Assembly: GCA_017861475.1 (NCBI GenBank) | Contig: JAGFXV010000025.1 | Span: forward strand, 1-15,898 | Direction: 5' to 3' | DNA from: Bacillota bacterium | GTDB taxonomy: Bacteria > Bacillota > Syntrophomonadia > Syntrophomonadales > Syntrophomonadaceae | DNA length: 15,898 nucleotides | In this document: positions 1-15,898 of the stretch, piece after piece | Layout: every line of letters begins with the position of its first letter | Numbering within the stretch: the first letter of the stretch is position 1 | Translations under genes and position numbers: made by a program | The notes under the pieces: model-generated | Told to the model about the DNA's origin: nothing | Databases searched by the model: none | The model's input: the letters and a program-made list of their open reading frames with translations, nothing else

Positions 1-1
1 A

Positions 2-1494: not shown

Positions 1495-1611
1495 GCCTGT
1501 CATAAATCCTGGAATTCATTTCTGCCCTTTCTTAAAATCATTCGATTAAAATGCCTGTTTTACTTCAACCATCGACGATCCCGGATAGAATCATAAAGAC
1601 ATTTTTATGTC

Positions 1612-1627
1612 TGGCATGCAATTTGCA
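1612..1627 (+). promoter_or_regulatory. Sigma-54 (-24/-12) promoter of the etf operon
   Basis: TGGCATG-CAAT-TTGCA matches the -24/-12 consensus (TGGCAYG-N4-TTGCW), with GG and GC in the invariant spacing. Transcription should start near 1637, leaving a leader of about 90 nt before etfB. A near-identical promoter lies at 9559. Confidence -1.
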
Positions 1628-1657
1628 CTTCCCTGAGTCAGAATAACATTTTCAGCA

Positions 1658-1697: not shown

Positions 1698-1726
1698 CAA
1701 TAACTTTTTAGGGGGTAGCCATAAGT

Positions 1727-2494
1727 ATGTCTAAAATCATTGCGTGCTACAAATGGGTAGCAGACGAAGCCGACATCAAAATCAATCCGGATCTGACGGT
1801 AGATCTCAAAAAGGCCAAAGGAAAAATCAGTGACTATGACCGGAATGCAATCGAAGCGGCAGTCCAAGCCGCCGGCAGTTTGGGCGGTAAAGCAGTTAGT
1901 CTGACCTTTGGCAATGCTTCCGCCAAGCAATCCTTGAAGGACGCTCTGTCCCGCGGTCCTGAAGAGGGATATTGGATCAATGCAGAAGAGGCAGCAACTG
2001 CTGATGGATCAATAACTGCAAAAGCCCTGGCCGCTGCGATAAACAAGATCGGTGATTATAGTTTGATCATCTGTGCAGAAGGGGCCAGTGATACTTATGC
2101 CCGTCAGACCGCACCACGCATAGGCGCAGCCTTAAACCTTCCGGTAATAACCTCAGTTGTTCAAATGACTTTCAACGGCAACAGCCTGACCGCGGTCAGA
2201 AAACTTGAAGACAGCACGGAAACGGTACAGACAGAATTACCGGCTGTTGTTGCAATTTTGCCGGAAGCCAATGAGCCTACTATTCCTGGTTTGAAAGCAG
2301 TTATGGCAGCCGGAAAGAAGCCCGTCACTGAATATACAGCAGCTGATTTGGGTATAGATTTTACCCCTAAAAATCAAGTTACTGCAGTCAAGGGTTATGT
2401 AATGAACCGCAAGAACATCATTTTCAACGAAGGCAGTACTGCTGATCAGGTGAAAGCACTGGCAGCCGCTTTAAGAAAGGAGTGTGTTCTGTAA
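1727..2494 (+). CDS. etfB: Electron transfer flavoprotein subunit beta (FixA/EtfB)
   Basis: 255 residues, the normal length for EtfB. The N-terminus (IACYKWVADEADIKINPDL) and the segment KISDYDRNAIEAAVQAAG are typical of the family, as is the central part with GASDTYARQTAPRIGAAL and the nucleotide-binding region. EtfB pairs with EtfA to carry electrons between acyl-CoA dehydrogenases and other carriers in the cytoplasm; the beta subunit binds AMP in simple ETFs and a second FAD in bifurcating ones. With fixC and fixX next in the operon this is the FixA-like type that may bifurcate, but sequence reading alone does not settle the cofactor. ATG 1727 follows AGGGGG at 1710-1715. It is the first gene behind the sigma-54 promoter, and its stop overlaps the etfA start (TAATG). 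Confidence -1.
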   Translation: MSKIIACYKWVADEADIKINPDLTVDLKKAKGKISDYDRNAIEAAVQAAGSLGGKAVSLTFGNASAKQSLKDALSRGPEEGYWINAEEAATADGSITAKALAAAINKIGDYSLIICAEGASDTYARQTAPRIGAALNLPVITSVVQMTFNGNSLTAVRKLEDSTETVQTELPAVVAILPEANEPTIPGLKAVMAAGKKPVTEYTAADLGIDFTPKNQVTAVKGYVMNRKNIIFNEGSTADQVKALAAALRKECVL

Positions 2495-3399
2495 TGGCAG
2501 GCGTTTATATATATAGCGACAGAATGGATCTGGCTGCTGAACTGGTCGGTTTTGTAAAGGAAAACCAAAATAGCGCACAGGTTTTGTGTTTTACCCAAGC
2601 TGAAGCAGATCAGTTGACCTCCATTGGAGCAGACAAAGTTTGTTATCTGCAGGGTGACAGTCCGCTGGTTGAAAATTACGGACAAGCCATTGCTGAATAT
2701 TTGAAACAAGCAAACGCAGAACTCTTTGTTGTGGGGGCAACCGCAAGAGGAAGAGATCTGGCCGCAAGAGTCGCTGGATATCTTGATTGTGCAATGGTAA
2801 GTGATGCTTCCAGTCTTAGTTTGGAGAGTGGAAAGCTGCGTGCGGAAAGAATGATGTATGGCGGAGCCGTTGTACAAAGCGAAGAAATAACCGGATTATG
2901 TGTTGTTACTGTGGCTGCAGGCAAATACCAACCGGTTACCGGCAGTGCTTCCGTTGAGACCGTTCAAGTTACTGCGGACAACAGAGTGAAATTGTTGGAA
3001 ACAGCACCGATCGTCAAAGAAGGCGTTGACTTGAGACAGGCTTGCAACGTGGTTTGTGTCGGTCTTGGACTGGAAAAAGAAGAAGATTTAAAAATAGCCA
3101 GAGATCTGGCGGCCGCCATTGATGCTGAACTTGGCTGTACCAGAGGGGTCGCTGAAGAAAGACATTGGCTACCGGTGGAACAGTATATCGGCATATCCGG
3201 TGCTATTATCAAACCGCAGCTGTATATTTCCATGGGCGTATCCGGACAGGTGCAGCATGTCTTTGGTGTTCGTGATGCTAAAGTTATCGTTGCCATTGAC
3301 AGCAATGAAAAAGCTCCTATTTTCCGCTCGGCCGATTTTGGCATCGTAGGCGACATGTATGAAATCGTACCTTTGCTGACCCAAGCCATAAAAGGCTGA
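2494..3399 (+). CDS. etfA: Electron transfer flavoprotein subunit alpha (FixB/EtfA)
   Basis: 301 residues. The C-terminal FAD-binding domain is clear: GISGAIIKPQLYISMGVSGQ, then VQHVFGVRDAKVIVAIDSN, KAPIFRSADFGIVGD and a short helix. The GISG loop stands where many housekeeping EtfA proteins have GQTG, closer to the FixB/CaiB-type branch. The start at ATG 2494 overlaps the etfB stop (TAATG) and follows AAAGGAG at 2476-2482. A GTG at 2482 would overlap that ribosome binding site and is rejected. The protein forms the heterodimer with EtfB and would pass electrons between the acyl-CoA dehydrogenase encoded downstream and FixC. UGA is its stop codon, showing that UGA is read as stop in this organism. 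Confidence -1.
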   Translation: MAGVYIYSDRMDLAAELVGFVKENQNSAQVLCFTQAEADQLTSIGADKVCYLQGDSPLVENYGQAIAEYLKQANAELFVVGATARGRDLAARVAGYLDCAMVSDASSLSLESGKLRAERMMYGGAVVQSEEITGLCVVTVAAGKYQPVTGSASVETVQVTADNRVKLLETAPIVKEGVDLRQACNVVCVGLGLEKEEDLKIARDLAAAIDAELGCTRGVAEERHWLPVEQYIGISGAIIKPQLYISMGVSGQVQHVFGVRDAKVIVAIDSNEKAPIFRSADFGIVGDMYEIVPLLTQAIKG

Positions 3400-3440
3400 T
3401 TTTGTTCAAAAGTTAAAGTCTGTCCAAAGGGGAGAAAAAA

Positions 3441-4733
3441 ATGAGTGAAACTGAAAAAATGGATGCAATAATCATCGGAGCCGGGCCGGCCGGCATTGCC
3501 TGCGCTTACACTCTGGCCAAGGCAGGTAAGGAAGTTTTGGTGATTGAAAGGGCAGAATCACCGGGGGCAAAAAACGTAACCGGAGGCAGGGTCTATAGTT
3601 ATGCGCTGGAGATGGTAGAGGAGGGACTCACTTCCGAAGCTGCGCTTGAACGGAAAATTACCCATGAACAGATCATGATGCTGGATGGAGATCAAGCTAT
3701 CAATATCGATTACCATAACCCTGCTTACAACAGTGAAGAGAAAACTGCTCAATCATACAGTATCTTACGGGCTCGATTTGATGAATGGTTTGCTGGCAAA
3801 GCCGAAGAAATGGGAGCAATGGTAGCCTGCGGCATAAAAGTTGATAAATTATTGAAGAAAGATGGAAAAATCGTCGGCGTGCTCGCGGGAGAAGATGAAA
3901 TGTATGCCGATGTTGTGGTTGCGGCTGACGGAGTAAATTCCTTAATGGCCCAGAAAGCTGGACTTATCAAAGACATTCCGGCACATAACGTGGGCGTAGG
4001 GGTTAAAGAAGTAATAGAACTGCCGGCGAAAACGATCCGGGAACGATTTAATCTGCAAGAGGATGAAGGAGCTGCCCGCATGATCCTTGGCTGTACGGAA
4101 GGCATCCATGGCGGCGGATTCTTGTACACCAATCAGGACAGCATTTCGTTAGGCTGTGTATTCATGCCGGAAGAAGTTGCGGCGCATGGAAAATCCGTCC
4201 ATGAAATATTTCAGAATCTCAAAATGCACCCCGCCATTTATCCATTAATTGCAGACGGTGAAACAGTAGAATATGGAGCTCATCTGGTCAGTGAAGAAGG
4301 ATACCGCGGCATACCTAAAAAGCTGTATCGCGATGGTTTCTTGATGGTTGGCGATGCCGCCGGATTTGTAATCAATACCGGTTATTCCATCAGGGGTATC
4401 GATTTAGCTATTGTCAGCGGTGTGGCTGCAGCCAGAGCGATATTAACTGCGCCATCGATTGAACAAGTGGGTCCCGCCTATATGAAAGAACTGAACAATG
4501 CGGAACTTCTGCCTACCATGAAAGCAGTTGACGGATACACGGATCTGCTGTCCATTCCACGCATCTATACCAGTTATCCCCAAACGGCCCTGGGTGTGTT
4601 TGAAAAACTATTTACGGTCGATGGAAAGAAACCCGAGAGTGTCATTAAAGGGGTCAAAGCGGTGCTGAAAAGCAATGGATTATCTTATTGGCAGCTTTTT
4701 AAAGATGCTTTAAGGGGGTATAGATCAGTATGA
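3441..4733 (+). CDS. fixC: FixC-type ETF:quinone oxidoreductase flavoprotein
   Basis: 430 residues, usual FixC length. An N-terminal FAD-binding Rossmann motif (DAIIIGAGPAGIACAYTLAKAG) is followed by KNVTGGRVYS, typical of FixC/geranylgeranyl-reductase-like flavoproteins, then the second FAD motif DVVVAADGVNS and the third GFLMVGDAAGFV. FixC accepts electrons from EtfAB and passes them to quinone together with the ferredoxin-like FixX. It acts as a membrane-associated protein without transmembrane helices. The ribosome binding site AAGGGGAG lies at 3427-3434. The stop overlaps the fixX start (ATGA), implying translational coupling. Functional direction (quinone reduction from acyl-CoA oxidation, or bifurcation from NADH as in FixABCX) is not decided by sequence. 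Confidence -1.
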   Translation: MSETEKMDAIIIGAGPAGIACAYTLAKAGKEVLVIERAESPGAKNVTGGRVYSYALEMVEEGLTSEAALERKITHEQIMMLDGDQAINIDYHNPAYNSEEKTAQSYSILRARFDEWFAGKAEEMGAMVACGIKVDKLLKKDGKIVGVLAGEDEMYADVVVAADGVNSLMAQKAGLIKDIPAHNVGVGVKEVIELPAKTIRERFNLQEDEGAARMILGCTEGIHGGGFLYTNQDSISLGCVFMPEEVAAHGKSVHEIFQNLKMHPAIYPLIADGETVEYGAHLVSEEGYRGIPKKLYRDGFLMVGDAAGFVINTGYSIRGIDLAIVSGVAAARAILTAPSIEQVGPAYMKELNNAELLPTMKAVDGYTDLLSIPRIYTSYPQTALGVFEKLFTVDGKKPESVIKGVKAVLKSNGLSYWQLFKDALRGYRSV

Positions 4734-5023
4734 GCATAAGCAGAATGGAAGCTCCGGAACTTCTAAGTTTAAATAGATTTAATGTAGACGAAGATGAGCC
4801 TCATATCGTGCTTGATAAGAATAATTGTTTACTATGCAAGGAAAAACCGTGTTTGGTTGTCTGTCCAGCAGTGTTATACAAGCTCAACAAAAATGGCGAA
4901 ATGAGCTTTGACTATGCCGGTTGTCTGGAATGCGGCACTTGCCGGGTGATGTGCAGGAACAAGGGGATCGTTAAATGGGAATACCCACGGGGAACTTTTG
5001 GGGTCAGTTTCCGGCAGGGATAG
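4730..5023 (+). CDS. fixX: FixX ferredoxin-like protein
   Basis: 97 residues, the standard FixX size. Two cysteine groups are seen: CLLCKEKPCLVVCP and CLECGTCRVMC, followed by the conserved FixX tail with KWEYPRGTFGV. Known FixX/ETF-QO proteins bind one or two iron-sulfur clusters and form the electron exit of FixC toward quinone. The second group retains all four cysteines of a CxxCxxCxxxC site. It overlaps fixC by 4 nt (ATGA), so the two are probably made in equal amounts. This completes an intact etfB-etfA-fixC-fixX module. Confidence -1.
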   Translation: MSISRMEAPELLSLNRFNVDEDEPHIVLDKNNCLLCKEKPCLVVCPAVLYKLNKNGEMSFDYAGCLECGTCRVMCRNKGIVKWEYPRGTFGVSFRQG

Positions 5024-5125
5024 AATTCCGTTTTTCAGCATTTAAAAAAGGGAGGGATGATAACGGTAATCAGCTGGTAAAAACCAAAACTAATCGATTG
5101 AAAAATTTGAGGAGGTATTTTTGTT

Positions 5126-6264
5126 ATGTGGTATATGACTGAAGAAAGACAATTGATGCTCAACGTAGCCAAGGAATTTGTGGAAAAAGAAGTAAAACCG
5201 ATGGCCATGGAAATCGAGAAAACCCATGAATTTCCCACCAAACTTTTTAAAAGAGCTGGCGAACTGGGATTCCTGGGCATAACAGTTCCCGAAGAATTTG
5301 GCGGACTGGGAGGAGACTTTACTACCCTTTGTTTAGTTTGTGAAGAAATCGCAAAGAGCATGCCGGTTCTGACCGTTGCCATGACTGCCCATAGCTGCCT
5401 GGCTGGTGGACTGATCAAAATGCTGGGAACTCCTGAGCAAAAGAATAAATATCTGACACCGGCTGCAACCGGAGATATTGTACTGGCTTGCGCTTCCACC
5501 GAAGGTGTTGGCGGTTCCAACCAGATTGAATATACGACCCGTGCAGTTCAGGATGGCGATGAGTGGGTAATCAATGGTTCCAAAGTGTTGATCAGCAATA
5601 TTGGCGTTGCAGATGCCTATGTAATATTAGCAGTTACCGGTGAAAAAGTTGATCCCGTAACCAGATCGTTGATGCCGGAACTCCCGGACTTGAAATTGGC
5701 AAACACGAGCTCAAACTCGGATGGCATGGATCTGCGACCGGCAGCGTCTCATTCAGAAATTGCCGTGTTCCCAAAGATGCATTGATTGGACCTCTGCATG
5801 GCGGAATGATGGCCATGTTTGTCAGCGCCACTGATGAGTTCCTCAGCTGTGGACCGGTCGGGCTTGGAATGGCAGAAGCCTGCTATGAAATGGCTTTAAA
5901 CTACAGTCTGGAAAGAGTGCAGTGCGGACAGAGCATGTTTGACCGCTTCCAGCTTACCCGCCATAAACTGGTCAAGATGTACACCGAGATTGAATCACTA
6001 CGCGCCCTGGTTTATAGTTCAGCAGCCAAAAGAGATTCCGGCAATCCCAGTCTGGCTGAAGGCCGCATGCTGAAAGCGAAAGGTTATGAAGTATCTGAAT
6101 ATGTAGCCAATGAAGCCATTCAACTATTTGGTGGTGTTGGTACCATCGTTGATACCGGCCTGGAACGCTTCTGGCGCGATGCCAAAATGATGGCCATCGG
6201 TGGAGCTTCAGTGGAAGCTTTGAACGAACAGATCGCCATGATGATCAAAAATAAAATGGTTTAA
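5126..6264 (+). pseudogene. Acyl-CoA dehydrogenase, frameshifted near 5667
   Basis: Two overlapping frames together make one acyl-CoA dehydrogenase of about 379 residues, the normal family size. ATG 5126 follows GAGGAGG (5109-5115) well; the frame reads the N-terminal helical domain and the beta domain through VTRS (codon at 5666), then loses homology and stops at 5783-5785. From 5668 the next frame reads VDAGTPGLEIGKHELKLG and continues uninterrupted through the C-terminal domain to 6264. Family members have roughly four to five more residues at the join (pattern ..AFIV before DAGTPG), so about 13 or 16 nt appear lost. Two imperfect 12-nt repeats, GTTGATCCCGTA at 5648 and GTTGATGCCGGA at 5668, flank the spot. 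The canonical catalytic Glu of IYEGTSE is replaced (AIGGASVE), as in isovaleryl-CoA dehydrogenase-like members with the base elsewhere. This is either a recent lesion or a sequence error; if intact, the enzyme would donate electrons to the adjacent EtfAB. Confidence -1.
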
Positions 6265-6382
6265 TTCTCATGCCGGGGTAGTTTAATGATTTAAAGGTTA
6301 TCACGGTCGTGCCTGAGCTACCCTGACCAGAATGAATAAAAGACTGTCATCTATAAGTTTTTTACGCTGGGAGGGTTTCATA

Positions 6383-7450
6383 TTGGAAAACAAGACAATG
6401 AAAGCATTGGTTTATCAGGCACCTCAAAACTATGGCCTAATGGACGTCCCGGTACCCCAAATTATTGACCCGACGGATGTTATCGGCAAAGTAACATTGG
6501 CAGCCATCTGTACAAGTGATATTCATATTGTGCATGGTGAAGTTGCCAGTGCTGTCGCCCCGAGGATTATCGGTCACGAGTTTTGCATTGAGATCGTGGA
6601 GATTGGAGCCGATGTTAAAACTGTCAAACCCGGAGATCGTTGTGTAGTTAAGCCTTCTGCTTCCTGTGGAGAATGCGTCATGTGCAAAATGGGTGTTCGC
6701 TCGGCCTGCTTAAAAGGTGGTATATTTGGAACCACTGTTGACGGATGTTTTGCCGAGTACATGAGAGTTCCTTTCGCCGATCAGAAGGGCGAACTTTACA
6801 AGATCCCGGAAGGACTGGATGAGGAATCTGTGATCCTTCTTCCCGATATGCTGGGGACAGCATATTATGCCTGAAAGATCTCAGAAATAAAACCAGGACA
6901 AACTGTAGCGGTGATCGGCGTGGGCCCGGTGGGACAAAGTACCTGTCTGCTGGCCAAGAAAGTTTTCGGAGCTAAAAAAGTAATCGCCATTGATATTCTG
7001 CCAAATCGAATCGATTTGGCATTAAAAGCAGGGGTTGCAGATGTTGGCATCAACCCTGCCACAGATGATATTGCCGCAATTATTAAAGAAGCAACCGGTG
7101 GTATGGGTGTTGATTGTACCATTGAGGGAGCTGGAGTAGCGCAAACCATGGCAATGGCAGCCGGCATTACCCGCGTAGGTGGGATTGTTTCGACCATTTC
7201 CATCTTCAACGAACAGTATGTAGGTATTCCCATGAACGAGATGCTGATCAAAGGACAAAAACTGCACTTTGGCATTCAGACTCAGGAAGGCGTACCCGAA
7301 ATGATGAAAATGATACAGGACGGAAAAATCGACGCACGCTTTATTACTACACATCGTGCGCCGCTCAATGATATCATGAAAGGCTTTGAAGTCTTTGGCA
7401 ATCGCCAGGATGGGTGCGTCAAATGGTTGGTTACACCTTATGAAAGATAA
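6383..7450 (+). pseudogene. Zinc alcohol dehydrogenase (MDR family) with in-frame TGA at codon 164
   Basis: The frame would encode 355 residues of a zinc-dependent medium-chain dehydrogenase, broken only by TGA at 6872-6874. The first part has the catalytic zinc ligands (Cys43, GHE at 64-66, probable Asp155) and the structural zinc cysteines CGECVMC plus Cys109. The part after the TGA holds the NAD(P)-binding Rossmann motif VIGVGPVGQS and the rest of the fold without further damage. The start is TTG 6383, not the ATG at 6332: GGGAGG lies at 6370-6375, and the resulting N-terminus MENKTMKALVY lines up with MQKETMKALVY of the paralogue at 15379. In that paralogue the TGA position is Leu. The product would oxidise a secondary or beta-hydroxy alcohol, perhaps of a CoA thioester, but the substrate is not readable. 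It may be a recent nonsense mutation, a sequence error, or (less likely) readthrough. Confidence -1.
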
Positions 7451-7532
7451 CCCAATGAAACGAAACATGTAAAAATGACTACTGATAAAGCTGATTACAT
7501 CATAGGTGAGATAAAAAGGGAGGTTATTTATA

Positions 7533-8366
7533 ATGAAAAATCCAAGTTTTGTAATGACATCAGATGAAATGCAAGCCTTTAAAAATGGCGACTATATGAA
7601 GACCGGAGCCGTATTGGGCGGCTTTGAAGGTATCTATGTATCCTGGCAGACTGATCCCAAAGCAATCAAGAAAATATTACCCGCACCGTTGGACTTTTTC
7701 CTACCCATTGCTACTGCCTATGTTGCTAACGTTGCCAAACCCAACTATGCAGCTCCTTATCTGGAAGCAGGTATTGGCGTTCCCGCAATTTATGAGGGGG
7801 CCATGGGATTCTATTTTATTAATTTCCAACTCAAAGGCGAAGGTGCTGCCATGGGTACTTTCCTGGGACGTGAAAATGGTGGTATCCCGAAGAAATTTGC
7901 GGATGAATTGGTGTTAACCAGAGATGGCAACGCTGTCAAGGCTTATGTGGAACGCGACGGTGTTCGCCTGATTGACATCGATGCTGTGATTGGCGTATAC
8001 AACACTCCCGATGCTGCCACTTTGTTTGCTCCTTATACTCCTGGCGCAGTTGCTGAGGGATGCAACTATTTATACAAATTTGATTTTGATCAGATGCCTG
8101 ATGGAACAACAGCTTTTAGCAATCTAAGACTGCGACAGTCATTTTCGAAATCAACTGTTCATGAATTCTTGCCGGCAACCTGCAAAGTAAGTCTTCAGTC
8201 ATCTGAAAATGATCCCTGGGCAGAACTGCCAATCGTAAAAGTACTGGGTGGAGGCTACACCAATCTTGATATGCACCTGGTTGGAGACCATACCATATGC
8301 CAGGTTGACATGGATGAACTGCCCAAACTCCTGAAAGGAAAATTTGACAAAGTATTTCTTGGCTAA
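7533..8366 (+). CDS. Acetoacetate-decarboxylase-family protein
   Basis: 277 residues, slightly longer than clostridial acetoacetate decarboxylase. The active-site segment GRENGGIPKKFAD (Lys120, Lys121) matches the GREVWGYPKKLA segment of the Clostridium enzyme, whose first lysine forms the Schiff base and whose second lowers its pKa. Both lysines are kept. The family includes true decarboxylases of beta-keto acids and enzymes doing aldol or dehydration chemistry through the same imine. In an operon otherwise made of acyl-CoA enzymes, a beta-keto acid or cyclic beta-keto acid is a reasonable substrate, but this is inference. GGGAGG at 7519-7524 sets the ATG start. A hairpin with terminator character follows the gene (8419-8457). 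Confidence -1.
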   Translation: MKNPSFVMTSDEMQAFKNGDYMKTGAVLGGFEGIYVSWQTDPKAIKKILPAPLDFFLPIATAYVANVAKPNYAAPYLEAGIGVPAIYEGAMGFYFINFQLKGEGAAMGTFLGRENGGIPKKFADELVLTRDGNAVKAYVERDGVRLIDIDAVIGVYNTPDAATLFAPYTPGAVAEGCNYLYKFDFDQMPDGTTAFSNLRLRQSFSKSTVHEFLPATCKVSLQSSENDPWAELPIVKVLGGGYTNLDMHLVGDHTICQVDMDELPKLLKGKFDKVFLG

Positions 8367-8418
8367 TATAAACAAAATTTGAATCGTATATAGATACTTT
8401 TGCAGGGTAACCCCTGAT

Positions 8419-8460
8419 CAAATGAGCTATCCCCCAATGAAAGAGATAGCTCATTTGTTT
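8419..8460 (+). terminator. Strong hairpin between the decarboxylase-like and crotonase genes
   Basis: A perfect 13-bp inverted repeat (CAAATGAGCTATC at 8419-8431, complement at 8445-8457) encloses a 13-nt loop and is followed by TTTAAT, only a short T run. It may act as a partial terminator, or as a stabiliser or processing site that sets different levels for the genes before and after it. The downstream gene has its own strong GAGGAG site and no visible promoter of its own. Confidence -1.
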
Positions 8461-8485
8461 AATAGCAATAGAGGAGATGAAATAA

Positions 8486-9286
8486 ATGTATCCGTATGAG
8501 AAGAAATATGATCATGTCATAAAAGTGGAAAAAGAAAACCATATAGCGACCATTACTTTTGATTGTCAGCAAAATATGAACCGTTTGGGTGAACAGACCA
8601 TTGATGAATTTACAGCAGCATTGGAAGACTGCCATTGGGATAAAGACGTTCGCGTTATTATTTTAAGAGGAACCGGTGATTGGTGTTTTGGCCCTGGTGA
8701 TCTGCCGATCATTCAGACCAAATTAGCCAAGAGTTTGCCCGATGGCCGTGAGGTCATGTATGAAATCGCCAACATGATCAAGAAAATGTATACCATCTCC
8801 AAGCCGATCATTGGCGTAGCTGAAAGCGGTTGCATTGGTGGAGGCTGCAATCTGCTGCTGTCCAGTGATATCGTTATCGCTTCCGAAACTGCCTATTTCC
8901 TGCAAATCTTTGCTGACTATGCATTAAGTCCTGATACCGGTGGACTGTGGGCACTGCAGCGCCTGGTCGGACCGATGAAGGCGAAAGTTCTGGCCATGAC
9001 TGCTGAACCTGTTCCTGCCAAGGCAGCAATGGAAATGGGGATGATCTACAAAGTAGCGCCTGATGCTTACGCTGAAGCGGTCGCGCTGGCTACCAAGATT
9101 GCCGCTAAATCTCCGGTTGGTATCAACCATATTAAACAAATCAGCAATCGTATGCATGATTACACCATGGAGACATATTTCCAGGTCGAAGGTGACTATC
9201 TGACACTGGGTGCTCTCAGCCAGGACTTTAAGGAAACCAACATTGCCGTTGCCCAACAAAGAAAACCCGAATATAAAGGTTATTAA
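8486..9286 (+). CDS. Crotonase-family enzyme (enoyl-CoA hydratase/isomerase-like)
   Basis: 266 residues, standard crotonase size. The oxyanion-hole segments are visible: FGPGDLP (residues 68-74) and GCIGGGCN (115-122), then SPDTGG (148-153) and the LQRLVG helix. The two catalytic glutamates of enoyl-CoA hydratase are absent: the residue after GGGC is Asn122 instead of Glu144 (rat numbering), and the second is Phe in FLQIF. An Asp in LSPDTGG is retained, as in PaaG-like isomerases. Hydration is therefore doubtful, and double-bond isomerisation, C-C hydrolysis or another crotonase reaction on a CoA thioester is more likely. ATG 8486 follows GAGGAG at 8471-8476. It is the last gene of the first operon, followed by a terminator at 9336. 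Confidence -1.
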   Translation: MYPYEKKYDHVIKVEKENHIATITFDCQQNMNRLGEQTIDEFTAALEDCHWDKDVRVIILRGTGDWCFGPGDLPIIQTKLAKSLPDGREVMYEIANMIKKMYTISKPIIGVAESGCIGGGCNLLLSSDIVIASETAYFLQIFADYALSPDTGGLWALQRLVGPMKAKVLAMTAEPVPAKAAMEMGMIYKVAPDAYAEAVALATKIAAKSPVGINHIKQISNRMHDYTMETYFQVEGDYLTLGALSQDFKETNIAVAQQRKPEYKGY

Positions 9287-9335
9287 AAAAATATAATTCT
9301 CCAAAAATATAGTCATGTTATCATATCTCTTATTT

Positions 9336-9375
9336 GCAGCTCGTCGCTTATACCGGCGGGCTGCTCTTAATTTTG
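9336..9375 (+). terminator. Intrinsic terminator ending the etf operon
   Basis: GCAGCTCGTCG (9336-9346) can pair with CGGCGGGCTGC (9354-9364) in an 11-bp stem with two G-U pairs and a 7-nt loop, followed by the T-rich TCTTAATTTT. It lies 50 nt after the crotonase stop and ahead of the second promoter region, so it marks the boundary between the two operons. Confidence -1.
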
Positions 9376-9403
9376 TAGCATTTCTGAATACTTCATATAT
9401 ATA

Positions 9404-9447
9404 TGATCGATTTTCCAAAATACAGTTCGAAGGATATTAATACAAAC
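9404..9447 (+). promoter_or_regulatory. Putative upstream activator site (copy 2)
   Basis: This is the second copy of the element at 1451: TGATCGATTTTCCAAAATAC is identical except for one base, followed by a diverged middle and the conserved TTAATACAAA. AATACA occurs at 9419 and 9439, again exactly 20 bp apart. The block starts 156 bp before the GG of the -24 element at 9560, nearly the same distance as in the first operon. It is most likely a binding site for the PAS-AAA-Fis regulator. No gene is seen between 9287 and 9633. Confidence -1.
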
Positions 9448-9558
9448 AAAACAACAAAAATATTTAAATGATTATTATTTGGCAAAGATAACCATAAGAA
9501 TACGTGCTGAACCCCGACAATACGGCAACTAAAATTTATATTAAACAGTATGCATGAT

Positions 9559-9574
9559 TGGCATGGATGTTGCA
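9559..9574 (+). promoter_or_regulatory. Sigma-54 (-24/-12) promoter of the cooC/hgd-like operon
   Basis: TGGCATG-GATG-TTGCA is a full -24/-12 match, with the same -24 and -12 blocks as the promoter at 1612 and a different 4-nt spacer. Transcription should start near 9585. That lies only a few bases before the ATG at 9592 and supports the later start at 9634 for the first gene. Confidence -1.
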
Positions 9575-9633
9575 CTTATAGGTTTACATAGATGACGGTC
9601 AAACAAATTAACGAAAAAAGGAGTCCGGTCAGT

Positions 9634-10395
9634 ATGGTAGCGGAACGACCTAAAGTAATTGCAGTTTGCGGAAAGGGAGGAGTCGGCAAAACATCCATTT
9701 CAGCACTGATAACCAAAGTTTTGATCGCCGAAGGTAAAAAAAGAATTTTAGCGATCGATGCTGATCCAGCAGTTGGTTTTGCCAGTGCACTGGGAATTAA
9801 GGTTGGAAGAACAGTCACAGATATTCGCAATGAAGTCATTGAAAAAAGCAAGGTCGACCGATCTGACAAAAAAGCGATTCTGGCGAAAATTGATTATCAG
9901 GTTTTTGAAGCCATGATTGAAAAAGACGGATATGCTTTTTTGGCAATTGGGCGTCCGGAAACAGACGGTTGCTATTGCCGGGTCAATACGTATTTAAAAA
10001 CGATCATTGAAGCCATGGTCCTGAATTTTGACTATGTAATTATTGATGGTGAAGCCGGGATCGAACAGGTAAACCGGAGGGTTATGGAAGAAGTAAGCCA
10101 TCTGTTGCTTGTATCAGATTGCAGTTACAAAGGGATCAATGTCATAAAAACCATTAACGAGGTTGCTGCCAGCGGGGTTATGAAATATGAAAGAGCCGGA
10201 GTTCTGTTGAACCGATTAAAAGACGACAGAGAAACGGAACTGGTGGACCTGGAACCTTTGGAATTACTCGGCGCCATGTTGGATGATGACATGATCCGCA
10301 GCTTCGATATCCAGGACAGGCCGCTGTTGGAGCTCCCATTCAATCAGTCCTGCGAAAAAATTAAAGAAGTATTAATTAAATTTGATGTTCTCTAA
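9634..10395 (+). CDS. cooC: CooC-type P-loop ATPase (nickel/metallocluster chaperone-like)
   Basis: 253 residues from ATG 9634, preceded by AAAGGAG at 9617-9623. An upstream in-frame ATG at 9592 has no ribosome binding site and sits almost at the predicted transcript start, so it is rejected. The deviant Walker A motif CGKGGVGKTS (residues 12-21), the ILAIDADPA switch region and FDYVIIDGEAGIEQ define a MinD/NifH-like SIMIBI ATPase. The pair Cys113-Tyr-Cys115 in DGCYCRVN matches the metal-binding CxC of CooC, which forms a dimeric Ni(II)/Zn(II) site and helps nickel insertion into CO dehydrogenase. No CO dehydrogenase lies in the window. Instead the operon holds HgdB-type proteins and an acetyl-CoA synthase fragment, so the client may be one of those, or the gene may support a metal site encoded elsewhere. 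Family placement is firm; the client is unknown. Confidence -1.
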   Translation: MVAERPKVIAVCGKGGVGKTSISALITKVLIAEGKKRILAIDADPAVGFASALGIKVGRTVTDIRNEVIEKSKVDRSDKKAILAKIDYQVFEAMIEKDGYAFLAIGRPETDGCYCRVNTYLKTIIEAMVLNFDYVIIDGEAGIEQVNRRVMEEVSHLLLVSDCSYKGINVIKTINEVAASGVMKYERAGVLLNRLKDDRETELVDLEPLELLGAMLDDDMIRSFDIQDRPLLELPFNQSCEKIKEVLIKFDVL

Positions 10396-10458
10396 GAAAC
10401 GATAAATCGATTTAAGATCATTGGAAAAACCAACTAAAAAATGGGTGGTGTAAATTAT

Positions 10459-11625
10459 ATGGAAAAAATAAAAGAGCTTGCGTTTTTTGAGAAATTACTA
10501 AATACTCCCCAAAATTCGCTGGTAGACAAAGCGGTTAAAGAAGGAAGGATCCCTATTGCCTATAATTGTTATACTGCGCCTGAAGCGCTGCTTTCCGTAG
10601 GCAAAGCATTTCCGGTACGCCTGAGAGCACCGCAGACGACCAGCACAGAATTGGCAACTTTCTACATGTCACCATTTACCTGTTCTTATTCGCGCAGTAT
10701 TCTGGAAGCTGCTTTGGATGACCAGTATGAATTTATACAAGGCATGGTATTTGCCGCCTGCTGCGTTCAGATCCAAAGAACTGCACACAACTACAAACTG
10801 CAGAAACTCAAAGGTGATGAGAAATTTGTTCATTATCTGATCGATGTTCCACGCAAAGAATTTGATGCATACGTACCAGCTTTGGTAGCTGATCTGAAAA
10901 AACTGGCAGGGCTTATGGAAACCACTTACGGCCTTGATATGAGTGAAGAAAATATTAGAAAAGCCATTCATGAGCAAAACGAGTTCAACAAGCTTTTGAA
11001 GGAAATATCTGATTTCAGAAAACTTGATAAACCTAAAATTACCGGTTCCGAATGGCATATGGTCTATACTGCATGCAAAACCGCACCCAAGGATATGCTG
11101 GTTGAACCTCTCAAGAAATTAAAGACTGCTCTGGAGAAACGGGAAGGCTTTGAGGCAAAGGCAAGACTTATGGTGATGGGTTCCATTTGTGACAATCCGG
11201 CTTACATCGAATTGATTGAAAGCCAGGGCTGTTTGGTGGTTGCAGACCGTTTCTGCTACGGTTCACTTCCCGGGATGGAAATGATCCCTGAAGAAGGCGA
11301 TGTATTTACGAACCTGGCACTTTTCTATCTGGAATCCAACGAATGCCCAAGAATGATGGAAAAAATGGAATTCCGTGCGGAACGTGCAGAGAATTACCTT
11401 GAAGAATACAAGGCGGACGGGATCATCTTTGAAACCTTAAAGTTCTGTGATGTATGGGGATACGAAAAACTTAAAACCCTGAAGATCCTTGAAGACAAAG
11501 GCATACCTTGTGTAAGGATCGAAAGAGAATATGCTTTAAGCGGCGAAGGCCAAATGAAAACCAGAGTACAGGCCTTTATTGAAAGCATACAAAATAAGCA
11601 GCTGACTGAAAAGTTAGCTAAATAG
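10459..11625 (+). CDS. 2-hydroxyacyl-CoA dehydratase/benzoyl-CoA reductase family subunit (HgdB/BcrC-like), small
   Basis: 388 residues from ATG 10459, set by GGTGGTG at 10444-10450; the in-frame ATG at 10441 overlaps that site. The family pattern is visible from end to end: NCYTAPEALLSVG (Cys37), a second cysteine in FTCSYSRS (Cys75), the AACCVQIQR segment (Cys101/102), a middle helical region, and the late motif LKFCDVWGYEKLK (Cys330) followed by GIPCVRIEREY and the GQMKTRVQAFIE tail. In known members three cysteines hold a [4Fe-4S] cluster that receives one electron from the activase and makes a ketyl or aryl radical of the acyl-CoA substrate. It lies 11 nt before the larger homologous gene, with the activase behind that, so a two-subunit enzyme is likely. 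Whether it dehydrates a 2-hydroxyacyl-CoA, reduces a ring or does something else cannot be decided. Confidence -1.
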   Translation: MEKIKELAFFEKLLNTPQNSLVDKAVKEGRIPIAYNCYTAPEALLSVGKAFPVRLRAPQTTSTELATFYMSPFTCSYSRSILEAALDDQYEFIQGMVFAACCVQIQRTAHNYKLQKLKGDEKFVHYLIDVPRKEFDAYVPALVADLKKLAGLMETTYGLDMSEENIRKAIHEQNEFNKLLKEISDFRKLDKPKITGSEWHMVYTACKTAPKDMLVEPLKKLKTALEKREGFEAKARLMVMGSICDNPAYIELIESQGCLVVADRFCYGSLPGMEMIPEEGDVFTNLALFYLESNECPRMMEKMEFRAERAENYLEEYKADGIIFETLKFCDVWGYEKLKTLKILEDKGIPCVRIEREYALSGEGQMKTRVQAFIESIQNKQLTEKLAK

Positions 11626-11636
11626 GGGGCGAAAGT

Positions 11637-13343
11637 ATGAGTGATATTACAAAGGGAATGCTCGCGCAAGCAATTCTTAACGATAGTATAAAAAACATGA
11701 TGATGGAGCAGACCAAGGCAGGCATGGCCAAGTTTAAAAGTCCTGAATTCAAGGCTGCATGTATGAAAGCAGTTGCAGATCCGGCAGCGAGAGAGGCATT
11801 AATCAAGCAACTGATGGCTGATCCTTTAACTGCACCGGTCGCTTTTAAATTGTTCAGTCCTGAAGCGCAAGCTGCGATGAAAGCACAGTCCAAGAAAAAA
11901 TCCAAGGGTAATGCAAAAGATCAGTGGGTGGATTTTAAATACTGGTTAAAATGCTGGAAGACTTGTATGCATCAGCCTGAAAGCAAAGAAGACAAGGCCA
12001 AAATGAAGCAAGCACAGATGGACTTCCCCTGGATGATCGACCTTATGAAAACAGTTTCCATGGGTAAAAGATACACAGAAGGCCGTACCGGCATTGCCCT
12101 GCAAATGAGTTGGAAAGCGATCATTCATCAGGCTGCCGCTACGATCGAACAACTGAATAATGTTTTCCTTGATCCGGAAAATACAGTCCTGGCACAGATC
12201 ATGGTGCCGACTCAGATCTACAAAGCCATGGATCTACATCATTTTTGTGCTGAAACACCTGCCAACATCCTGATCATGATGGATCAGCACTGTCATGAAA
12301 AATATATCGATGAAGTGGTTAACCACGGTTTGCCGGATGATACCTGCAACTACGCATCCCAGACACCAGGGGTGGTTTTGGCCGGACATCTGCCCAATCC
12401 CGGAACTGCTTTAATTTGCTCGAATCTGCCCTGTGAAGCCGGATTCTCATCCTATGCCATTGTTGAACGCGAGTTGGGTATTCCCACTTATCGTCTGGAT
12501 GTTCCTTATAACTTTAAGACAGAGGAAGATCGCGCAGCCTATGTAAAAGATATGTTTGGCATGATTGCCTTCCTGGAAGAAACAACCGGTCATAAAATGG
12601 ACTGGGATAAACTGAGAAAAGTATGCGAAGATACCAACAAATTGGGCGAAATTGAACTGGAACGCTGGGAAATGAACCGTTCCGAAAATCCTCCGGTCTG
12701 TAATGATATGTTGTGGTTCCCGCATCTGTGCTTCTTCTCCATGGATGCAGGCCGTGCAGATGCCGTGCCTCTCTTTGAAGATCTGCAAAAATTAGGACGC
12801 AGAGCTTATATGAAGAAAGAATGTTCAGTAAAACCGATGAAGTACCGTGCGATTCTCTGGAATCCTCCGACCTTCGGATATACCTACTTCTGGAGTTGGA
12901 TGGAAAGATGCTGGGGCATCGGGGTTGTCCAGGACATGGAAACCTATGGACCGGTTAATGTGATCGATACCACTTCTCCCGAGTCCATGCTGGAAGGTCT
13001 GGCTCTGCAGTGGTGTAACGCTGCCATGTCAAGACATACCCGCGGACCTGCTGAAAACTGGATGGGTGATGTGGCAAAATTGACTGAAATGTATCGCCCC
13101 GATTTCATTCTTAATCTGAACCATATGGGATGCAGAAGCAGTCTGGGTCTGACCGGAGCGATGAAAGAATGGGCCAACGAAAATGATATGCCGGTCTGCA
13201 TCGTTGACTATAGCATGTATGACAGCCGTGTAGTTTCCAGACAGGGAATCAGAGATCAGATCAACAACTTCATGATGAACATTATGCATGCAGAACCGTT
13301 GGATCCGAGTCTCCTGGTATTTGACGACGACAATGCATGGTAG
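11637..13343 (+). CDS. Large HgdB/BcrC-family subunit with N-terminal extension
   Basis: 568 residues, clearly longer than the usual 380-480 of this family. Residues 1-90 form an extra, Met/Ala/Lys-rich, probably helical region ending in a lysine-rich linker (QSKKKSKGNAK). The family core follows: a stretch around HHFCAETPANILI (Cys204), DDTCNYASQTPG (Cys237), ICSNLPCEAG (Cys261, Cys266), and the late LNHMGCRSSLG (Cys499) with MPVCIVDYSMYDSR and SRQGIRDQINNF. These correspond in order to the cysteine-bearing motifs that bind the [4Fe-4S] cluster in HgdA/B and BcrB/C. The start at ATG 11637 follows GGGGGCGAAAG (11624-11634), 11 nt after the small subunit. It should pair with that subunit, and either or both may carry clusters. 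Trp and Met are frequent, as in other substrate-binding subunits. Substrate is unknown; membership in the family is confident. Confidence -1.
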   Translation: MSDITKGMLAQAILNDSIKNMMMEQTKAGMAKFKSPEFKAACMKAVADPAAREALIKQLMADPLTAPVAFKLFSPEAQAAMKAQSKKKSKGNAKDQWVDFKYWLKCWKTCMHQPESKEDKAKMKQAQMDFPWMIDLMKTVSMGKRYTEGRTGIALQMSWKAIIHQAAATIEQLNNVFLDPENTVLAQIMVPTQIYKAMDLHHFCAETPANILIMMDQHCHEKYIDEVVNHGLPDDTCNYASQTPGVVLAGHLPNPGTALICSNLPCEAGFSSYAIVERELGIPTYRLDVPYNFKTEEDRAAYVKDMFGMIAFLEETTGHKMDWDKLRKVCEDTNKLGEIELERWEMNRSENPPVCNDMLWFPHLCFFSMDAGRADAVPLFEDLQKLGRRAYMKKECSVKPMKYRAILWNPPTFGYTYFWSWMERCWGIGVVQDMETYGPVNVIDTTSPESMLEGLALQWCNAAMSRHTRGPAENWMGDVAKLTEMYRPDFILNLNHMGCRSSLGLTGAMKEWANENDMPVCIVDYSMYDSRVVSRQGIRDQINNFMMNIMHAEPLDPSLLVFDDDNAW

Positions 13344-13384
13344 AAATTGATATGTAAAAGGAAGAGAAAAGGAAGGTATATATA

Positions 13385-14191
13385 ATGAGTACGACATATG
13401 TATGCGGTTGTGACGTTGGTTCAACTTACGGCAAAGCAGTGATTATGGATTTGAACGGGAAAATCGTAGGAAGTTCCATCGTACGCAGCAAAATCGACCC
13501 GGAAGAAACCAGCAAGTTGGCCATTGCCGAAGCTACAAAAGGAATTGATGGCCTTAGTATGAACGACTTTGCTTACCTGGTGGGAACGGGTTACGGCCGG
13601 AACCGTGTACCCTTTGCCAATGAGAATATCAGCGAAATTAGCTGTCATGCAATGGGTGTTCATATTACCAATCCTGCCATTAAAACCATCGTCGATATCG
13701 GCGGACAGGACTTAAAAGGGATCACAATTGATGAAAATGGTTCGGTTAAACATTTTGCCATGAATGATAAATGTGCTGCCGGAACCGGTAGATTCTTTGA
13801 AGGAATGGCACGTGCATTTGAAGTTGATTTGCAGGAATTCTCGGATATGTCATTAAAAGCGAAAGAAATACTGCCGATCACTTCACAGTGCAGTGTTTTT
13901 GCCGAGACTGAAGTAATCAGTATGGTTGCCCAGAAAAAGAACCCAAATGATATTGCCGCTGGCATTCAGGCATCTGTTGCCAAAAGATGTTTCACAATGC
14001 TGAAGAGCGCAGGGATAGAGCGGGAAGTGACTATGACTGGCGGGTGTGCTAAAAACAAAGGATTAAAGAATGCTTTGGAAAAAATACTGAAGTTTGAAAT
14101 CACAGAATTAAGCACAGATCCTCAGTTGATGGGAGCTCTTGGCGCATGTGAATTTGCCCGTAAAAAAGCATTGGTTGCCAAGGCTGGGTAG
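13385..14191 (+). CDS. ATP-dependent activase of the HgdC/BcrA/BadF family
   Basis: 268 residues, close to the HgdC (260 aa) type of single activator. ASKHA-fold ATP sites are seen: CGCDVGSTYGKAV at the N-terminus, TIVDIGGQDLKG in the middle and VTMTGGCAKNKGL late. The two cysteines that bridge the homodimer [4Fe-4S] cluster are present as NDKCAAGTGRF (Cys130) and ITSQCSVFAETEV (Cys169). In known systems the reduced activase hydrolyses ATP to push one low-potential electron into the partner protein. Here the partners must be the two HgdB-like proteins directly upstream. Electrons would come from ferredoxin or flavodoxin. GGAAGG at 13371-13376 sets the ATG. The single HgdC-size activase points to a homodimeric activator rather than the two-subunit BcrA/BcrD arrangement. 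Confidence -1.
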   Translation: MSTTYVCGCDVGSTYGKAVIMDLNGKIVGSSIVRSKIDPEETSKLAIAEATKGIDGLSMNDFAYLVGTGYGRNRVPFANENISEISCHAMGVHITNPAIKTIVDIGGQDLKGITIDENGSVKHFAMNDKCAAGTGRFFEGMARAFEVDLQEFSDMSLKAKEILPITSQCSVFAETEVISMVAQKKNPNDIAAGIQASVAKRCFTMLKSAGIEREVTMTGGCAKNKGLKNALEKILKFEITELSTDPQLMGALGACEFARKKALVAKAG

Positions 14192-14244
14192 CATGATCGT
14201 TTTTCAATATTTATTTATATCTGTATAAAAGAGGAGGAAAAACA

Positions 14245-14397
14245 ATGATTAAAAAGTTATTGCCCATTGCCGGGATTGTATTTATTGCAACTATCTTAGC
14301 GGTTAAAACGGATTGGGATGAAAAATTAACCGATGAAATCGAACCTTTACTCATGACCGCTGCCAAGATAAAGGCAACGCTGAATGGCTTATCCTAG
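14245..14397 (+). CDS. 50-residue single-pass membrane miniprotein (A)
   Basis: A short gene with a very strong ribosome binding site, GAGGAGG at 14231-14237, eight bases before ATG 14245. Residues 1-4 are basic (MIKK), residues 5-20 form one hydrophobic helix (LLPIAGIVFIATILAV), and the tail is mixed-charge: KTDWDEKLTDEIEPLLMTAAKI across residues 21-42. By the positive-inside rule the N-terminus should be in the cytoplasm and the tail outside; an uncleaved anchor seems likelier than a signal peptide. The pattern D-x-D-x-x-L-x(4)-[IV]-E-P-x-L recurs in the next gene (FDLDDALIKKVEPKL), so the two are probably paralogues. No known family is recognised. Location between the activase and the acetyl-CoA synthase-like gene suggests a membrane anchor or assembly role in this complex, which is inference. 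Confidence -1.
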   Translation: MIKKLLPIAGIVFIATILAVKTDWDEKLTDEIEPLLMTAAKIKATLNGLS

Positions 14398-14423
14398 TTT
14401 TATGGAGAGGAAGTGCAACTGAA

Positions 14424-14627
14424 ATGGAAAAAGCAGCAAAATTAGCCAAACTGGGCAAAGGTGTTTTAACGCTGGCTGGCGTAGCTGGTATCGCATTATT
14501 TACCGTCTACTGGTTTGATTTGGATGACGCGCTGATCAAAAAAGTGGAACCAAAACTGAAGGCCAAGGCAGAAGCATATCAGGCACAGAAAGCTGCTGCT
14601 GCAGCTGCAGCCGCCGCACAGGAATAG
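14424..14627 (+). CDS. 67-residue single-pass membrane miniprotein (B), Ala-rich tail
   Basis: ATG 14424 follows GGAGAGG at 14404-14410 (13-nt gap). A basic N-terminal amphipathic stretch (MEKAAKLAKLGKG) leads into one hydrophobic helix at about residues 14-31 (VLTLAGVAGIALFTVYWF), then FDLDDALIKKVEPKLKAKAE and a long alanine run near the C-terminus (eight or more Ala, written with mixed GCN codons, so not a simple repeat artefact). The segment after the helix aligns with that of the 50-residue protein just upstream, including the EP-x-L pattern, so this looks like a tandem duplication with divergence. Function unknown. The gene ends 16 nt before the acetyl-CoA synthase-like gene and is surely co-transcribed with it. 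Confidence -1.
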   Translation: MEKAAKLAKLGKGVLTLAGVAGIALFTVYWFDLDDALIKKVEPKLKAKAEAYQAQKAAAAAAAAAQE

Positions 14628-14643
14628 GAGAAGGTGATCCATC

Positions 14644-15360
14644 ATGTTTGATGCTTATTTAGATCAAGTAAAGACCATATTAAATGCCGAGGATATCCGG
14701 GAAAAAACCAACGTTTACACATGTAATAAAAACAAGGCCTGGCCGCGCACCGAGCGCCAAATTATTTTGAACAATGAAACTGCCGTTGAGCTTGGGCATC
14801 CCAGTACAGAATCGGTGTCATTCTTACTATGGACCGAGTCTGCAGATAAAATTAAAGATAATAATATAACCATCATTGGACCAGATTTGGATCAAACCAA
14901 CGCAGAACGGATACCCTACGGCAAAATCGTTTTGGTAAAGACGACTGGTTTTGATAAAGATAATGCCTACAAGCGTTTTGAAAAGATGGATCATTTAAAA
15001 TTTAAATCAGAGTTAGAGGGATTTATGTTGCGCTCGGTGCCACAGGATTACAAGGAATGGAGTCGGGTCAGCAAAAAGGCTATAAAATCCGGTTTCAATT
15101 TAAAAGTTTTGGGCGGAGAACTGATTAGAGATCTAAAGACCCTTGATTTTGTAGAAGCTGTAGAAATAATCTTTATTACTTCCAGCAAGGAAGATGTAGC
15201 AAAGTTCAAGCAAATTGGAGAAATTGTCAGTAAGGCTACCATGGCAATGAACAAAATGTTTGAAGATCTGGAATTTGATTGTGAACATTGCACGTTTAGA
15301 GAAGTATGCGATGAAATCGATGGCATGAAGGGCATGCACAAAAAAGCAATGGCAGGTTGA
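14644..15360 (+). CDS. Stand-alone acetyl-CoA synthase (AcsB/CdhC) middle-domain-like protein with CxxCx5C tail
   Basis: 238 residues. The order of motifs resembles the central, CoA-binding domain of AcsB/CdhC: NETAVELGHPSTESVSFLLW, then NITIIGPDLDQ, IPYGKIVLVKTTG, a helix, FMLRSVPQDYKEWSRVSKKA with GFNLKVLGGELI, and VEIIFITSSKEDVAKF; AcsB has comparable LPLGILVKVYG, INWLRVSKDAVAKGFRFKNYG and VQVTIFTDEAKVKEYM segments. In AcsB this domain leads into the A-cluster domain. Here the protein ends just after DCEHCTFREVCDE, with Cys213, Cys216 and Cys222, reminiscent of the first three A-cluster cysteines; the nickel-binding CGC region is absent. It cannot be a full acetyl-CoA synthase. It could bind CoA or an acyl-CoA and a metal or Fe-S centre, and partner the CooC and HgdB-like proteins. 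The similarity is judged by eye, fairly confident for the domain, unknown for function. GGAGAAGG at 14627-14634 sets ATG 14644. Confidence -1.
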   Translation: MFDAYLDQVKTILNAEDIREKTNVYTCNKNKAWPRTERQIILNNETAVELGHPSTESVSFLLWTESADKIKDNNITIIGPDLDQTNAERIPYGKIVLVKTTGFDKDNAYKRFEKMDHLKFKSELEGFMLRSVPQDYKEWSRVSKKAIKSGFNLKVLGGELIRDLKTLDFVEAVEIIFITSSKEDVAKFKQIGEIVSKATMAMNKMFEDLEFDCEHCTFREVCDEIDGMKGMHKKAMAG

Positions 15361-15378
15361 GGTAAAAGGAGTGGCAAA

Positions 15379-15898
15379 ATGCAGAAAGAGACAATGAAAG
15401 CTCTGGTATATCGCGGACCAGGACAATATCAACTGGAAGACGTAGCCATACCGCAAATAATTGAACCAACTGATGTTATAGGCAGAGTAACACTTTCAAC
15501 CATCTGCAGCAGCGATGTTCATGTATTGGAAGGTCACATGAATAACGTCTCTCTTCCCAAGATCATAGGCCATGAATTTTGCGCGGAAATTGTTGAGGTT
15601 GGTTCAGATGTTAAAGAATTAAAAGTAGGGGATCGTGTACAGGTAATGCCCGGTATTTATTGCGGAAGCTGTAAATTCTGCAAGGCCGGGGTAGCAATCA
15701 TGTGTGAGCATAAAGATGCCGGCGTTCTTGGTGCAAATGGCGTTGACGGCTGCCAGGCCGAATATGTAAGAGTACCAATGGCAGATAAATTCTGCATTAA
15801 AATCCCGGATGGCATGGAGGATGAAGATATTCTTTTATTGGGTGATATGATGGGTACCGCCCGCTACGGACTTGAAAACGCATCCTTTAAAGCAGGAC
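15379..15898 (+). CDS. Second zinc alcohol dehydrogenase (MDR family), 3' end outside window
   Basis: The frame runs 173 codons from ATG 15379 to the window edge without a stop. The N-terminus MQKETMKALVYRGPGQYQL is a clear paralogue of the broken dehydrogenase at 6383. Zinc ligands are kept: Cys in STICSSDVH, GHEF, an Asp in LLGDMMG, and the structural cysteines CGSCKFC plus a fourth in IMCEH. The NAD-binding domain lies beyond the edge. AAAGGAG at 15365-15371 is 8 nt before the start. As the intact copy in the second operon it could supply the same dehydrogenase step as the interrupted gene of the first operon. The substrate is unknown; oxidation of a hydroxyacyl-CoA or alicyclic alcohol fits the context (for example 6-hydroxycyclohexenecarbonyl-CoA dehydrogenases belong to this fold). 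Confidence -1.
   Translation, partial: MQKETMKALVYRGPGQYQLEDVAIPQIIEPTDVIGRVTLSTICSSDVHVLEGHMNNVSLPKIIGHEFCAEIVEVGSDVKELKVGDRVQVMPGIYCGSCKFCKAGVAIMCEHKDAGVLGANGVDGCQAEYVRVPMADKFCIKIPDGMEDEDILLLGDMMGTARYGLENASFKAG

Follow-up and report, generated by a model that had tools for sequence, protein, structure and literature searches.

A stand-alone acetyl-CoA synthase domain protein encoded with a CooC-type ATPase beside genes resembling those of ATP-driven CoA-thioester reductases

Overview of the gene module

A 15,898-nucleotide stretch from a Bacillota bacterium of the Syntrophomonadaceae (GenBank assembly GCA_017861475.1, contig JAGFXV010000025.1, positions 1 to 15,898 of the forward strand), called here the window, carries a module in which a stand-alone protein with the CdhC domain of acetyl-CoA synthase (ACS) is encoded together with a CooC-type ATPase, two HgdB-family subunits and a BcrA/HgdC-type activase. 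In all 26 loci in which the stand-alone CdhC protein was found, HgdB-family and/or activase genes lie alongside. We give an even chance to the reading that the module encodes an ATP-driven, low-potential CoA-thioester reductase, similar to class I benzoyl-CoA reductase, with a metal-carrying partner for the CoA ester. Four features read from the sequences underlie this proposal: the conserved positions of cluster ligands, the fold, the association of the genes, and a module CooC that forms a co-evolving group of its own.

The module genes of the window, and the promoter-like site ahead of them, are the following.

9559..9574, + strand: sigma-54 promoter-like site, exact match to the consensus, about 60 bases upstream of cooC
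9634..10395, + strand: CooC-type ATPase with P-loop and CYC motif
10459..11625, + strand: HgdB-family subunit, BzdN-like, six cysteines at double-cubane ligand positions
11637..13343, + strand: HgdB-family subunit, BzdO-like, three [4Fe-4S] cysteines, helical N-terminal extension of about 150 amino acids
13385..14191, + strand: BcrA/HgdC-type ATP-dependent activase
14245..14397, + strand: miniprotein with one hydrophobic, helix-length stretch
14424..14627, + strand: miniprotein with one hydrophobic, helix-length stretch; a relative is present in locus L002
14644..15360, + strand: stand-alone CdhC-domain protein, 238 amino acids, with the ACS middle domain and Cys213, Cys216 and Cys222

These genes lie on a single strand with intergenic gaps of 11-53 bases; the initial annotation had described CooC, the HgdB-type pair, the activase, the miniproteins and the ACS-domain gene as one tight sigma-54 operon, and such an operon is what the coordinates give. 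The first of the two HGD-D genes probably starts at 10459, which yields a protein of 388 amino acids as in the nearest relatives, rather than at 10441, where the open reading frame opens.

Association of the stand-alone CdhC protein with reductase genes

A search with the CdhC-like protein gave 184 matches, of which the best 120 are listed. A pattern scan that used the CdhC-like protein alone, with one genome per species, produced 46 stretches; 22 of them were not confirmed by tblastn and were left out. The remaining 24 loci (L002-L025) all come from metagenome-assembled genomes, in which single binning errors are possible, the window's own contig included. By their titles they belong to Coriobacteriia, Clostridium, Tissierellales, Desulfobacterota, 'Deltaproteobacteria' groups, Spirochaetaceae, Dehalococcoidia, Actinomycetota and one unplaced bacterium. 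In a profile search, 112 of 398 genomes sampled from the window's phylum had a CdhC match, and in two of the 398, the window's genome and G162, the CdhC protein is a stand-alone one; the other listed matches of the phylum lie in open frames of at least 360 amino acids, most of them longer than 700.

The window, G162 and the 24 contigs make up the 26 loci. HgdB-family genes are present in 25 of them, the exception (L018) being a contig that starts inside an activase gene, and an activase gene is likewise present in 25, the exception (L019) being a contig of 3 kb. A CooC gene is present in 23. In the three loci where it is missing, the contig breaks off 2, 179 or 450 bases beyond CdhC, and in L005 another HgdB-family gene begins within these 450 bases. 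In 21 of the 23 CooC-bearing loci, CooC lies directly 3' of CdhC. In the window and in L002 it is found more than 4 kb upstream of CdhC (4.2 kb in the window), ahead of the HgdB-family genes. The control consisted of the 20 best-scoring of 28 full-length ACS loci, all from the window's phylum. Within the 17-20 kb read at each, no HgdB-family or activase gene was detected at E 1e-8 (0/20), and CooC-like genes were present in all 20. The initial annotation had made its proposal depend on AcsB-like and cooC genes being conserved next to HgdB-like genes in other genomes. Seen from the CdhC side the proposal stands, with HgdB-family and/or activase genes beside CdhC in 26/26 loci, CooC in 23 of these, against 0/20 for ACS.

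The reverse check, from the HgdB side, has almost no sample, because the long HgdB of the window's type (type A, see below) is found at E 1e-60 only in the window's genome among 63 of its class, and type A occurs in only one of the 398 genomes of the phylum. The window's HgdB stands far above the next match (120 bits), which lies on a 3.8-kb contig, L068, with HgdA, HgdB and activase genes and no CdhC. The stand-alone CdhC is always accompanied by reductase genes here, and the reductase may not always be accompanied by CdhC. Relatives of CdhC were also sought in viral contigs; none was confirmed and this line was dropped.

The CdhC-domain protein

The window's protein matches CdhC (PF03598) with 62 bits against a cut-off of 24. 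It corresponds to the middle, CoA-interacting domain of ACS followed by the first three A-cluster cysteines, and these three cysteines are invariant in all 29 sequences aligned, which are the window's and 28 of the 120 listed relatives. A degraded fragment of ACS is ruled out by the conservation over the full length of this alignment, judged by which the protein is a conserved stand-alone family. What the initial annotation called an acetyl-CoA synthase fragment is more precisely a family of its own, with the middle domain and the start of the A-cluster site.

ACS (AcsB/CdhC) has about 700 amino acids as compared with 238, and the middle domain is common to both. The fourth A-cluster cysteine and the CGC motif of ACS are both missing from the CdhC-like protein, which ends 16 residues after Cys222, and the spacing between the second and third cysteines is eight residues in ACS and five in the CdhC-like protein; the 28 full ACS sequences of this comparison had been selected by their A-cluster cysteine and CGC motifs.

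CooC and its probable client

The window's CooC gives AAA_31/CbiA matches, and its best solved relative is CooC of C. hydrogenoformans (3KJE, E 9.3e-15). The module's CooC shares the P-loop and the CYC motif with the CooC/AcsF-type nickel ATPases, and a CxC motif is present in all 54 rows of the CooC tree. In this tree, from which the CooC of L014, cut by a contig end, was left out, a 100/96 branch separates 22 module CooCs from the two CooC-like groups that accompany ACS (32 rows). The distances of CdhC and CooC are correlated with r 0.96 (23 loci) and those of HgdA and activase with r 0.91 (21 loci), loci without a long enough copy of a compared protein being left out. The cross pairs, CdhC or CooC against HgdA or activase, give r 0.38-0.45, a low value due in part to the best-scoring HgdA and activase switching between the two sets, A and B, described below. 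None of 999 permutations reached as high a value for any of the six correlations. As far as tree and distances can tell, the module's CooC is a separate group which co-evolves with the CdhC-like protein.

The initial annotation had found no carbon monoxide dehydrogenase (CODH) or complete ACS nearby, and this extends to the window's whole bin (77% complete), where neither a CODH match nor an ACS C-terminal domain was found and the only CdhC match is the module's own. The four hosts with type A only (the window's bin, L002, L003 and L010) have no CODH over the cut-off and no ACS C-terminal domain, in bins that may be incomplete; weak matches to CODH models, where present, do not exceed 31 bits. 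The ACS domain is absent from seven of ten hosts examined, namely these four and those of L013, L019 and L024, and the last three also have no CODH over the cut-off. Among the 24 hosts of L002-L025, CODH over the cut-off is present in 16. The two sister species of the window have no CODH, and no module either. The client of CooC is probably neither CODH nor ACS.

The close tie between the two proteins is also what the main rival explanation builds on, by which the CdhC-like protein and CooC would be assembly factors, building a special cluster or inserting it into the HgdB-family subunits without a role in turnover itself. The two do act as one unit, as their adjacency and their correlation (0.96, compared with 0.38 to 0.45 against HgdA and activase) indicate, and five loci (L008, L011, L012, L016 and L022) share a single CdhC-CooC pair between two reductase sets, as would be expected of a shared accessory. 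However, BzdNO, the subunits of a known benzoyl-CoA reductase, acquire the [8Fe-9S] cluster in E. coli from a plasmid that carries bzdNO alone, without such maturation genes (PMC11971306), and a CoA-type domain is no obvious requirement of an assembly factor. We consider a maturation role somewhat unlikely.

The HgdB-family pair and the activase

The reductase reading, in which the CdhC-like protein is a working partner, depends on the identity of the HgdB-family pair. Both window subunits match HGD-D (PF06050; E 2.5e-80 and 2.2e-46), and the activase matches TIGR00241 with 222 bits (cut-off 125). The six double-cubane cysteine positions of BzdN are kept in 23/23 HgdA copies and the three [4Fe-4S] ligands of BzdO in 29/29 HgdB copies, HgdA copies shorter than 300 and HgdB copies shorter than 400 amino acids being left out. 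Cys95 and Cys380 align exactly and Cys128 is off by one residue; the double-cubane positions were mapped by alignment with the ligand numbers given in PMC11971306. Since the pair keeps all these ligands of BzdNO, it is likelier to be an ATP-driven reductase than a dehydratase.

The benzoyl-CoA reductase BzdNOPQ (PDB 8S02) is, like the module, a PF06050 heterodimer with a BcrA-type activase and has the same nine ligand positions. The module differs from it in the added CdhC-like protein and CooC and in scores far below the family cut-offs (114 of 454 bits for bzdN; benz_CoA_red_C gives 95 of 421), and the window's type differs further in its single activase gene and in the extension of about 150 amino acids on the catalytic-type subunit. 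The best NCBIfam match of the module's first subunit (as the 394-residue product of its open reading frame) is the double-cubane family DCCP (NF040772), with 143 bits and a cut-off of 350 that is not reached. DCCP is known together with its reductase (6ENO, 7YYL); the module has instead two different subunits, the second with only three conserved cluster cysteines.

A PF06050 pair with a single activase is also what one would expect of an ordinary (R)-2-hydroxyacyl-CoA dehydratase that has other genes alongside it. HadBC, the (R)-2-hydroxyisocaproyl-CoA dehydratase, shares the single activase and resembles the catalytic-type subunit in fold, HadB being ranked first by Foldseek and second by VIA-align, and beta-oxidation genes adjoin the module in L010. 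HadC, however, has non-cysteine residues in the alignment at two of the six double-cubane positions (Cys43 and Cys272), all of which the module keeps, and the scores for the NCBIfam dehydratase families stay below their cut-offs (111 of 700 and 53 of 750 bits). A dehydratase thus appears distinctly improbable.

The reductase sets are of two types. Type A, in the window, L002, L003 and L010 and as a second set in the five loci with a shared CdhC-CooC pair, combines a single activase with a catalytic-type subunit some 496-568 amino acids long; in type B there are mostly two activases, and the catalytic-type subunit has about 445-469 amino acids. In those five loci the pair lies between the B set and the A set. 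According to protein clusters, the families of which were read on L008, many type B loci also encode a GMC-type flavoprotein (12 loci), a protein of 493 amino acids (12 loci) and an iron-sulfur protein (10 loci), and an aldehyde ferredoxin oxidoreductase family gene lies near the module in five loci. The 493-residue protein (L008, 1931-3409) is encoded upstream of type B modules and has a weak relative (71 bits) in L056; it has no Pfam, NCBIfam or solved relative in the Desulfobacterota-type loci, and a family assignment was dropped. The aldehyde ferredoxin oxidoreductase family gene is found 3' of the tandem modules in L008 (13934-15877, by Pfam) and L016 (15161-17943, by clustering), and in L016 it is followed by a gene of the acyl-ACP thioesterase family. 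One contig of 2.09 Mb (2091942) carries at least five BzdN-like genes (P0242, P0266, P0268, P0282 and P0287) and two BzdO-like genes (P0148 and P0172), which suggests that its organism has an expanded set of such reductases.

Miniproteins

In the window, L002, L003 and L010, one or two short proteins, each with one hydrophobic stretch, are encoded between the activase and CdhC. The two of the window have no Pfam or NCBIfam match. A motif search picked up the window's alone and missed those of L002, L003 and L010, which were recognized by eye in the intergenic gaps, so that the motif scan of the other 21 loci is not a fair one. The miniproteins may anchor the putative complex to the membrane, as the tether that the initial annotation had suggested.

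Promoters and neighbouring genes

The window is made up of two transcription units with one exact sigma-54 site ahead of each (1612 and 9559). Exact matches to TGGCAYRN4TTGCW were searched; the two found compare with 0.03 expected from 200 shuffles, none of which reached two. The features outside the module are these.

59..1333, + strand: sigma-54-dependent activator, truncated on its 5' side by the edge of the window; best match NF041552 PrdR, 399.5 bits, cut-off of 795 not reached
1612..1627, + strand: sigma-54 promoter-like site, exact match to the consensus
1727..5023, + strand: EtfB, EtfA, FixC-like and FixX-like genes, a FixABCX-type set; FixA, FixB, FixC and FixX family matches, all below cut-off
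5126..6264, + strand: acyl-CoA dehydrogenase, frame broken in two near 5785
6332..7450, + strand: first Zn-alcohol dehydrogenase, frame broken in two near 6874-6911
7533..8366, + strand: acetoacetate-decarboxylase-family protein; a relative also adjoins the L002 module
8486..9286, + strand: enoyl-CoA hydratase family protein
9336..9364, + strand: terminator-like hairpin of 11 pairs between the transcription units
15379..15898, + strand: second Zn-alcohol dehydrogenase, 3' end beyond the window

The operon seems to extend into the second Zn-alcohol dehydrogenase, which begins 18 bases past the CdhC gene. The broken frames at 5126-6264 and 6332-7450 reflect either indels of the assembly or pseudogenes; no module gene is broken in this way. 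Terminator-like hairpins number six in the region as compared with 7.0 in shuffles. A riboswitch ahead of the operon was considered and dropped, the window having no Rfam match at the gathering threshold. L010 and L003 also have a sigma-54 activator gene, and sites with one mismatch lie shortly upstream of the HgdA gene (L010, 6168; L003, 6200) and of the L010 hydratase (11706), which is weakly above chance, since 11/100 and 43/200 shuffles do as well.

A FixABCX-type set beside an ATP-driven reductase of the double-cubane type resembles the arrangements known for nitrogenase and carnitine, and the set at 1727-5023 could supply low-potential electrons; it is present in L002 as well. Genes of the enoyl-CoA hydratase, 3-hydroxyacyl-CoA dehydrogenase, thiolase and CoA-transferase families lie beside the L010 module, and acyl-CoA dehydrogenase genes adjoin those of the window and L002, which suggests that the product of the reaction enters beta-oxidation.

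Proposed mechanism

From these features we infer the reductase chemistry, the electron source, the identity of the metal and the physical complex. The activase would receive low-potential electrons, for which the FixABCX-type proteins encoded nearby are a plausible source in this lineage, and ATP hydrolysis would drive these electrons onto the [8Fe-9S] double cubane of the BzdN-like subunit. They would then pass to an aqua-[4Fe-4S] site of the BzdO-like subunit, at which the substrate would be reduced. With its ACS-type middle domain the CdhC-like protein would bind the CoA moiety or an acyl group, and its three A-cluster-type cysteines would hold a metal cluster; the dedicated CooC would load this cluster, possibly with nickel. 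The initial annotation had suggested a radical acyl-CoA enzyme with a metal-dependent or CoA-binding partner. An ATP-activated enzyme of the benzoyl-CoA reductase and HadBC kind with an ACS-domain partner and CooC does recur in many genomes; a reductase is the likelier form of it than the dehydratase that was also allowed for.

Several observations weigh against the reductase reading, which is itself drawn from sequence and gene context. The structure model of the CdhC-like protein has a pLDDT (predicted local distance difference test) below 50 in the cysteine tail, and with only three A-cluster cysteines kept and CGC absent an ACS-like nickel site cannot form in this protein alone. No support turned up for CoA contact by its W139, and no passage naming a CoA-binding residue was found in the parts of the literature consulted. 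For the HgdB model, Foldseek places HadB (4.5e-14) ahead of BzdO (1.6e-13), and the beta-oxidation genes of L010 would fit a 2-hydroxyacyl-CoA dehydratase as well. Desulfosporosinus fructosivorans, the nearest cultured host of the pair seen, encodes relatives of both HgdB-family subunits (74 and 73% identity) and has no CdhC among the best 120 of the 184 matches, where a similarly close one should appear; the 2.09-Mb contig with at least five HgdA copies has none among them either. In view of these relatives, the CdhC partner may be dispensable for the core reaction.

That the genes share regulation only, with the CdhC-like protein and CooC serving another task such as CO or CoA sensing, is very improbable: the 4.2 kb between the two genes in the window and the patchy distribution of the stand-alone CdhC (2/398) fit it, but it is opposed by the constant company of HgdB-family and/or activase genes in several phyla (26/26) and their absence from full-length ACS loci (0/20).

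Significance

The combination of CooC, CdhC, HgdB and activase was not found in the open-licence literature, as judged by titles and abstract openings. A link to the 'Magic' benzene-activation cluster, which comprises flavoproteins, an iron-sulfur protein and CoA transferases, was dropped, the terms CooC and CdhC being absent from the main text on it (PMC13101534).

The gene set suggests a metal-assisted reaction on CoA compounds that has not been described previously. One gene set, present in several phyla, joins what would be two of the hardest metal chemistries of anaerobes, the ATP-driven Birch-type reduction and the A-cluster of ACS. CooC gains a probable client other than CODH or ACS, and a small natural variant of the A-cluster offers a means to examine the metal needs of the three cysteines. 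A bolder form of the reductase proposal, which we think unlikely, is that the three cysteines, together with one ligand contributed by a partner protein, hold nickel or another metal on which the CoA thioester gives rise to an acyl-metal intermediate, with the ATP-driven double-cubane reductase supplying electrons of a potential below the usual biological range. If true, this would place A-cluster-like chemistry outside the Wood-Ljungdahl pathway, in reductive reactions of CoA esters that involve acyl groups or C-C bonds.

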